A stretch of 64,000 bases of DNA, taken from the NCBI GenBank assembly GCA_946407095.1, contig CAMJMR010000009.1:1-64000 (forward strand). The letters run 5' to 3'. The notes below the pieces were generated by a model. That model was not told the DNA's origin, searched no databases, and saw nothing but the letters and a program-made list of their open reading frames with translations. Every line of letters begins with the position of its first letter. Positions within the stretch are counted from its first letter, which is position 1. The translations under genes and the position numbers were made by a program. Below are positions 60,125-61,820 of the stretch, one piece after another. This stretch comes from an uncultured Selenomonadales bacterium. GTDB lineage: Bacteria > Bacillota > Negativicutes > Selenomonadales > Selenomonadaceae.

Positions 60125-60165
60125 AAAAAACGCCCTCCGAACGTCGAAGGGCTGAAAATTTTTCT
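60125..60165. terminator. Terminator, right side of the hydrogenase operon / end of the PLD gene
   Basis: AAAAAACGCCCTCCGAACGTCGAAGGGCTGAAAATTTTTC. Confidence 0.6.
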
Positions 60166-60172
60166 GTGCGGT

Positions 60173-61711
60173 TTAAAAGTCGAAGTATTCTTTCCTGTGA
60201 TGCGCAATCAATTCAGCGTCGTTGGACAAAAGCCCTGCCTCGCCGAACGTGTTAAGTTTCCCGTCCTTTGTCAGCACGTTGTAACTGGACAGCACCAAAA
60301 ATTTATCGTCGCAGATGAAAACCTTCGCGTGCGTGTCCGTCCGCTTGATTTTGAAATTCGGATAGCGACGGAAAGTTGCTTTGAGCCTTTCGGCGGTCTC
60401 TTTCGTTTTTCGATTCCCGACAGCATCCTCCTCGCCGATGCCGTAAAAAATTTTTATCGTCACGCCGCGTTCAAGCAGTTTACGAAATTTTGGCTCGTAG
60501 CTTGTTGTCACGTTATTTAATCTCATTGCCGTCACGTCCAGTTCAACTTGAGCCGACTCGACTGCCTCGTCAAAGCGTTGCCGAATCTCTTCGTCCTTGA
60601 GCGGTTGAAGTTCCGAACTTTTAACGCGTTCTGCTGATTGCAAAGCTTGCGGGCTTATTTTCGTGCGGAATTCAATGTAGCGTTCAAAACACCGCTCGAA
60701 AGATTTTTTAGCTGCCGAAACTTCCGCGTCAAGATTTTCGTTGAGTTTGTCGTTTTTGTCGATGACTTTCAGCGAACCGTAAGATTGCACGACCTGCGCG
60801 GCGTCGCGAATGATTTTTCGATAATTTTCGTTGCAACCGACTTTCGGCGCGGTGAAAGACAGCGCAACCAAATGTTGAAAAAATTCTGCGGAACGATAGA
60901 ATTCGTGATTCATCTCGCGCAAAACCTTAAAACCTTTTTCTACGCCGTCGAAATAAATTTTATCGGACTCGCGCCGCTTCTCGTAAGCTGCCCGTTGAGC
61001 CGTTGCTTTTTTGTGGGCGTCCGCTATCTGATTGTGAGCGACAAGCCCCGCTACGGCAATCGCGGGCAAGAAAAATGCTGCTCCCAAAAGAGCCGCGCCG
61101 CCTGCCATGCCGAGCCCGCCGCTTGCCAAGGTGCCGCCGCCCAAAGCCGCAAGCACAGCATGCACGTATGCGGTGCCCGTCAAGCCGGAAATGGCCGCGC
61201 CCGTGCCCGCCGTGCCGAAAGCCGTTATGAGCCCGACCGCACTGACGCCGACGCCCAAGCCCGCTCCGAATCCGCTTTTTATCGCAGTGCTTCCGTCGAA
61301 GGTAACTTGCTTGTCTTCGTTCCCGGCGAGAAATTTGTTCAGATTGTTTTCGGAAAAATTTTTCGCCGAAACTTCGCGGTCAAAATAAATTTTCTCCAGC
61401 GTATTCAAAGTATCGAACTGCTTGCGCACGCCGTCGACAATCCGCAAATAATCTTCCTGAATTGTTTTGAAGTCGCGCTTATAGTGTTCGGCATTGCTTT
61501 TGAAATTTCTGTCAATCTCGGCACAAAATGCATTGCTTGCTTCAATTTCCTCCTTAAGTTGCCAATCGTCGGCAAGGGCTTTTGCGCCCTTTACCACAAG
61601 CTTGCCGCCTTCCAAAACGGCCTTACCGCCAAGGTAAGCAACGCCGCCTACAATTCCTATTCCGCCGTAAAGAATTTTTTCACCAAATGAAAGTTTTTCC
61701 CATTCATTCAC
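60173..61711 (-). CDS. Membrane protein of unknown function: glycine-zipper core plus C-terminal PLD-like (HKD) domain
   Basis: SGFGAGLGVGVSAVGLITAFGTAGTGAAISGLTG...ALGGGTLASGGLGMAGGAALLGAAFFLPAIAVAGLVA; C-terminal THAKVFICDDKFLVLSSYN. Confidence 0.7.
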   Translation of the reverse strand: MNEWEKLSFGEKILYGGIGIVGGVAYLGGKAVLEGGKLVVKGAKALADDWQLKEEIEASNAFCAEIDRNFKSNAEHYKRDFKTIQEDYLRIVDGVRKQFDTLNTLEKIYFDREVSAKNFSENNLNKFLAGNEDKQVTFDGSTAIKSGFGAGLGVGVSAVGLITAFGTAGTGAAISGLTGTAYVHAVLAALGGGTLASGGLGMAGGAALLGAAFFLPAIAVAGLVAHNQIADAHKKATAQRAAYEKRRESDKIYFDGVEKGFKVLREMNHEFYRSAEFFQHLVALSFTAPKVGCNENYRKIIRDAAQVVQSYGSLKVIDKNDKLNENLDAEVSAAKKSFERCFERYIEFRTKISPQALQSAERVKSSELQPLKDEEIRQRFDEAVESAQVELDVTAMRLNNVTTSYEPKFRKLLERGVTIKIFYGIGEEDAVGNRKTKETAERLKATFRRYPNFKIKRTDTHAKVFICDDKFLVLSSYNVLTKDGKLNTFGEAGLLSNDAELIAHHRKEYFDF

Positions 61712-61784: not shown

Positions 61785-61820
61785 AAAAAGCCCCTCGTCA
61801 GTCGAAGGGCAGAAAAATTT
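61785..61820. terminator. Terminator between rpiB and the PLD gene
   Basis: AAAAAAAGCCCCTCGTCAGTCGAAGGGCAGAAAAATTTTT. Confidence 0.55.

Follow-up and report, generated by a model that had tools for sequence, protein, structure and literature searches.

The window (the whole 64,000-nucleotide stretch of rumen-bacterium DNA that was analysed) carries a gene for a 512-residue protein in which a PDC-M09A-type membrane module, hereafter the chassis, is joined to a single PLD domain. Judged from sequence, what is new is the combination: a chassis of the PDC-M09A type, already a named candidate as a part, bears a probable nuclease of its own instead of relying on the partner B. Whether the protein is a self-acting, membrane-tethered nuclease effector, of the modular kind linked to stress or phage defence, we consider an even call. 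Natural fusions of this sort show what the PDC-M09A chassis is coupled to, apparently a nuclease. They also turn a candidate of unknown function into a testable one-gene system, with H461/K463 as the catalytic-dead control.

Gene organization

The gene is one 512-codon ORF on the minus strand, with a GTG start and an AGGAGG motif just 5' of it (Table 1). From its sequence features, it is a genuine gene product made of two modules, the chassis (aa ~1-345) and the PLD domain (aa ~373-512). The earlier note had described a single gene with a terminator on either side, lying between rpiB and the hydrogenase operon; terminator-like hairpins are indeed found on both sides, and the gene map bears out the location.

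Table 1. Features of the 512-aa gene and its borders (positions in the window)
Feature	Position	Strand	Basis
512-aa ORF, PDC-M09A-like membrane chassis + single-HKD PLD domain	60173..61711	-	PADLOC PDC-M09A, MkoB; Pfam PLDc_2
N-terminal segment, Gly-rich, weakly hydrophobic, aa 1-47; missing from G200 ortholog	61571..61711	-	
Charged coiled-coil region, aa 48-142	61286..61570	-	charge counts; AF2 helix
Gly/Ala-rich hydrophobic membrane core, aa 143-231; motif common to many bacterial phyla	61019..61285	-	
Second charged helical region, aa 232-344; kept in both PLD and HEPN fusions	60680..61018	-	
Single-HKD PLD domain, aa 373-512	60176..60595	-	
HKD motif HAKVFICDDKFLVLSSYN, aa 461-478	60278..60331	-	
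Intrinsic-terminator-like hairpin 3' of the 512-aa gene	60132..60152	-	
Intrinsic-terminator-like hairpin of rpiB, 5' of the 512-aa gene	61790..61810	-	

The membrane chassis

The PADLOC profile PDC-M09A matches aa 70-247 (E = 3.3e-19). The Gly/Ala-rich hydrophobic core reported earlier is well supported: aa 143-231 are almost uncharged and the best stretch of 89 residues contains 43 Gly + Ala, a count whose maximum over 2000 shuffled versions of the 512-aa protein was 34. Two further descriptions did not hold. The core has 4 GxxxG motifs for a mean of 4.5 in composition-preserving shuffles (P = 0.73); the spacing is at chance for the composition, and "glycine zipper" is therefore a label rather than a demonstrated pattern. 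The supposed N-terminal hydrophobic segment (aa ~10-40) stays below a TM-like hydropathy threshold, and the ortholog of G200 (58% identical) lacks it. The AlphaFold (AF2) model of the full-length protein has a single long helix at residues 31-109, mostly with a pLDDT of 70-82 from residue 51. It is poor overall (pLDDT 60, core below 50), so that any membrane topology of the chassis is putative; the core may insert into the cytoplasmic membrane or lie on it. Foldseek used with this low-confidence model returned no significant match, and the alpha-pore toxin AhlB, at an E value of about 0.75, was not counted as evidence.

The chassis can be aligned with that of HEPN-like-fused proteins (20 invariant columns) and also with stand-alone chassis proteins. 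The latter are encoded by a gene of ~300-350 aa which, in a genome scan, is widespread (at least 80 loci in many phyla). Its frequent companions in the sampled loci are M09B, TerB-like genes, CxxCxxCC-type small genes and coiled-coil genes, M09B and TerB being scored with PADLOC or Pfam and the others identified by sequence inspection. The earlier statement that no named system could be matched stands for the fusion itself, which is new, but not for the membrane module: it matches PDC-M09A and is thus not undescribed as a part. PDC-M09 is not named by any paper in the literature searched.

Across phyla, the Gly/Ala-rich core is the best-conserved part of the chassis. This would suit an arrangement where the chassis is itself the effector, forming a pore or depolarising the membrane, and the PLD domain is accessory or regulatory. 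A weak LeoBC dynamin-family similarity, as well as a dynamin-like GTPase gene that adjoins a HEPN-type fusion in G272, point in the same direction. We nevertheless find such an arrangement unlikely, since in the comparison with G200 constraint is strongest on the PLD domain (dN/dS 0.18, against 0.30-0.44 elsewhere), whose catalytic residues are conserved.

The PLD domain and its likely chemistry

A single HxK(x)4D(x)7SxN motif is present in the C-terminal domain, in agreement with the earlier note. All 17 relatives compared retain its K, D and N, and 15 of them retain its H. Pfam PLDc_2 matches the 512-aa protein with E = 5.7e-6 and 26.6 bits, just below the cut-off of 27, which relatives of the same domain exceed. 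With PADLOC, the nearest profile of the C-terminal half is MkoB (E = 9.8e-19), followed by a weaker DrmC match (E = 6.8e-9); the NCBIfam DrmC model gives 28 bits for a cut-off of 133. An AF2 model of the domain alone, built from three sequences (pTM 0.68, pLDDT 68), matches PLD-fold structures of the PDB. Over nearly the whole domain, Foldseek aligns this model with NucT (E 1.7e-5) and Zucchini/MitoPLD (E 1.1e-4), both single-HKD matches of similar length, and a profile match to NucT is also obtained (E 7.5e-4). The domain has the signature of the single-HKD PLD superfamily, HxK(x)4D(x)6-7(G/S)xN in a PLD fold. By sequence and predicted structure, aa ~373-512 are thus a single-HKD PLD nuclease-fold domain of the NucT/Zucchini type.

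PLD-fold enzymes include true phospholipases, and the fold of the domain is also common to PssA and poxvirus F13. Since it is seated on a membrane module, the PLD domain could act on neighbouring lipids, as a phospholipid-remodelling enzyme of membrane stress or lipid turnover. This appears improbable: the nearest single-domain enzymes, NucT and Zucchini, are nucleases, and HEPN-like domains found in the same place (see below) favour nucleic acid as the common target. Moreover, the genes of three free-standing membrane PLD relatives each come directly after a small gene for an OB-fold protein (tRNA_anti, PF01336; best E 5e-7), a fold of the nucleic-acid-binding type. Together, the OB-fold companions and the HEPN-like exchange favour a nuclease rather than a phospholipase.

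The PLD domain is also found on other membrane or coiled-coil modules, and in three genomes (G002, G010, and G380) a chassis gene occurs two or three genes away from a free-standing PLD relative. The small OB-fold gene and the membrane PLD gene that follows it overlap by a few bases (L024:3035-4682, L066:9806-11793, L055:6035-8184), and in at least two of these loci the OB-fold protein carries a membrane anchor. This two-gene unit looks like an undescribed pair. Related membrane PLD proteins at L019:8034-9137 and L062:4161-5168 have R in place of the HKD His and have lost Ser and Glu. Their genes adjoin cell-wall genes, and from these substitutions the proteins are probably inactive pseudo-enzymes.

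Exchange of the C-terminal domain and absence of the partner

In Negativicutes, a taxon deduced from named relatives in the genome scan (Selenomonadaceae, rumen), the chassis is fused either to the PLD domain or to a C-terminus in which an RN-x2-x-H motif is conserved. The latter C-termini give sub-threshold Pfam matches to HEPN-related families and no match in a PDB profile search; the HEPN assignment therefore rests on the motif and the weak Pfam matches. The alternative domain of the chassis is then a putative RNA-cutting, HEPN-like one, HEPN being typically an intracellular RNase fold. A tree built on the chassis places the PLD clade of the window inside the HEPN-like fusions with support 98/85 (three PLD and two HEPN rows), and a 13-row clade holds most fusions (support 98/100). 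Of the 58 stand-alone genes, 56 fall outside the window/fusion clade. The PLD label needs three changes on this tree, where long branches leave the outer two PLD rows uncertain. Because the PLD domain occurs on other modules and the chassis occurs with either domain, both modules are portable and have met repeatedly.

Where the window protein has PLD, relatives have a HEPN-like domain on the chassis; this suggests that the protein is probably a nuclease effector tethered to the membrane, and not an enzyme with a housekeeping role. The nuclease-effector proposal of the earlier note is in this respect strengthened by the PLD fold and by the HEPN-like domain of the chassis relatives. A modular N-terminal unit with swappable, toxin-like C-termini also resembles polymorphic toxins in outline. 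However, family searches found no signal or delivery domain and no immunity gene is adjacent, which makes it highly improbable that the protein is a toxin for other cells, whether secreted or delivered by contact.

The membrane-tethered effector reading is also in line with the distribution of PDC-M09B, the partner whose gene elsewhere lies beside the stand-alone chassis gene. M09B is found in all 12 stand-alone genomes, adjacent to the chassis gene in most, versus 2 of 14 fusion genomes (G217 and G201), where its contig differs from that of the fusion. A hypergeometric test gives P = 9.4e-6, or 7.2e-4 without the five source genomes of the M09B model and a near-copy of one; as the genomes are related, these values serve as guides only. 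In the window's own genome (assembly 89% complete), an M09B alignment search found no M09B at E<=1e-5, and the best match to a single M09B protein used as query (E = 0.08) is not above noise. Accompanying the stand-alone chassis and rare with fusions, M09B appears to be replaced by the C-terminal nuclease, which on these sequence comparisons would stand in for it.

Accessory character of the gene at the rpiB-hydrogenase junction

Relatives are patchily spread, being found in 52 of the 381 genomes of the class that were searched. In the same set, the only full-length orthologs are those of G217 (88%), G200 (58%), and G201, the last one being broken into two halves in different frames with aa 123-177 unmatched. 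Among 66 genomes of the genus, hyaA is present in 57 and an intact fusion in 3. The junction is empty in the two close relatives examined, G218 (hyaA 96% identical) and G199, where rpiB is directly followed by hyaA. Aligned with these empty sites, the window has about 1.6 kb extra, corresponding to the gene and a second terminator. Between G200 and the window, identity is 94% for the hydrogenase small subunit but 58% for the fusion. The dN/dS of the fusion gene is 0.26-0.31, versus 0.07-0.11 for the hydrogenase genes, and its GC3 is 0.55 versus 0.67-0.70. The fusion gene is therefore an accessory insert, under purifying selection yet evolving faster than its neighbours. Homologs are not confined to one housekeeping context, since their surroundings differ from case to case and close relatives have nothing at the site.

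These data bear on another possibility, that of a nuclease bound to the membrane and used, like Helicobacter NucT, for housekeeping or scavenging (DNA uptake, purine salvage). NucT, which serves in purine salvage and transformation (PMC5714352), is the nearest solved single-HKD enzyme of equal length, and some free-standing PLD relatives are accompanied by OB-fold genes. However, the protein has no evident signal peptide, and the charged region ahead of its PLD domain is long and looks cytoplasmic. Within the genus the gene is uncommon, close relatives have an empty site and one copy is broken. Finally, HEPN-like domains occur on the chassis as well. A housekeeping role is accordingly doubtful, and an effector tethered to the membrane is preferred.

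The same junction holds, in G014, a gene for a 1554-aa protein (L203:2195-6859). It was rejected as a defence gene because it encodes an RTX-repeat (calcium-binding nonapeptide) protein; the rpiB-hydrogenase junction is thus better described as variable than as a defence hotspot. Elsewhere in the genus, the region upstream of this hydrogenase operon contains HmaB/HmaC defence genes (L195) or a gene for a type II methyltransferase (L207).

Defence context

The site of the gene in the window is no defence island. In a neighbourhood test of 84 neighbour genes versus 82 control genes (11 regions, nearly all from the same genomes), Cas1 and UvrD-type helicases occurred in the neighbour set only and at few loci, Cas1 beside 2 of the 11 and UvrD beside 2 near-duplicate ones. 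No evident defence-gene neighbours of the PLD fusions were seen in this test. The survey of homologs for defence islands suggested in the earlier note thus yields at most a weak enrichment, carried by the few Cas1/UvrD loci and with nothing evident for the PLD fusions.

At two loci cas1 is directly beside the chassis fusion, which is HEPN-like in L056 and cut by the contig end in L057; CRISPR-like repeats are present in L056 and a cas2-like gene in L057. The UvrD helicase (L058:3216-6785, L060:13337-16912) has 1190 aa and an RNase H1 N-terminal (Cauli_VI) domain, scored with Pfam in L058, the L060 helicase being a near-copy. Together with Hsp70-like and J-like genes recognized by eye, it forms a conserved cluster beside a HEPN-type fusion.

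The 512-aa protein has no match in 50,697 phage records, and IMG/VR contains one chassis relative and no PLD relative. With viral collections almost devoid of relatives, a phage-borne origin was rejected and the gene is taken as cellular. A plasmid search matched six cyanobacterial PLD genes.

A possible mode of action

It can be proposed that the Gly/Ala-rich core seats the PDC-M09A-type chassis in or on the cytoplasmic membrane, and that its coiled coils drive oligomerisation, so bringing the PLD domains together as a dimer. Membrane perturbation or infection would be sensed by the chassis, upon which the PLD nuclease would cut nucleic acid. The PLD domain, within one polypeptide, would replace the separate PDC-M09B of stand-alone chassis genes. 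The analysis itself establishes the two-module architecture and its homologies, the conserved HKD residues, the nested exchange of PLD and HEPN-like domains, the inverse relation to partner B and the accessory insertion. In this scheme we infer the membrane insertion, the oligomerisation and dimerisation, the nucleic-acid substrate, the trigger and the defence or abortive role of the fusion. More tentatively, the fusions could belong to a family of one-polypeptide antiviral effectors. The M09A module would be a sensor and anchor that either recruits M09B or carries an exchangeable nuclease (PLD or HEPN), and membrane perturbation would lead to nucleic-acid cleavage without a second messenger or a helicase.

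Comparison with named systems

The closest named relative is PDC-M09A, a PADLOC candidate forming a two-gene candidate system with PDC-M09B, which has the same Gly/Ala-rich chassis over aa 70-247. PDC-M09A is a stand-alone protein of ~300-350 aa with an adjacent M09B, whereas in the window the PLD domain is fused to the chassis, and the searches found no M09B in the 89%-complete assembly. With the M09A profile matched and no partner found, the protein is a chassis homolog and not a PDC-M09 system.

NucT and Zucchini/MitoPLD share with the window protein the fold, the single HKD motif and a general membrane association. They are short and have a simple N-terminal anchor, without a Gly/Ala-rich coiled-coil chassis. 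In the CoCoNuT type IV restriction systems, HEPN and PLD nuclease effectors are swapped on coiled-coil-containing proteins, and an associated gene encodes a protein with a bacteriocin-like glycine zipper (PMC11090510). This effector exchange resembles that of the chassis family, but CoCoNuT systems are built on McrBC-type GTPases and helicases, none of which is encoded at the window locus.

DrmC of DISARM has a PLD nuclease domain in common with the window protein, to which its profiles match weakly; DrmC-like PLD nucleases are abundant in bacteria (PMC9142583). Membership of DISARM was rejected, as DrmA, DrmB and the methylase are not found beside the gene, whose neighbours are rpiB and hydrogenase subunit genes. 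As for Mokosh MkoB/MkoC, the likeness lies in the MkoB profile match of the C-terminal half. No MkoA helicase is adjacent to the window gene and, without an MkoA-type helicase in the same operon, membership of Mokosh was also rejected. The MkoA-like helicase of the same genome is on contig C7, the window being on C9. This 1166-aa helicase (E 4.3e-90; L208, C7:12000-24000) is accompanied by a PDC-M26A match (E 1.3e-29), a PP2C-phosphatase-like gene recognized by eye and a kinase-like gene (PD-T4-6 profile). From these similarities, the L208 cluster is possibly a Mokosh-related defence locus.
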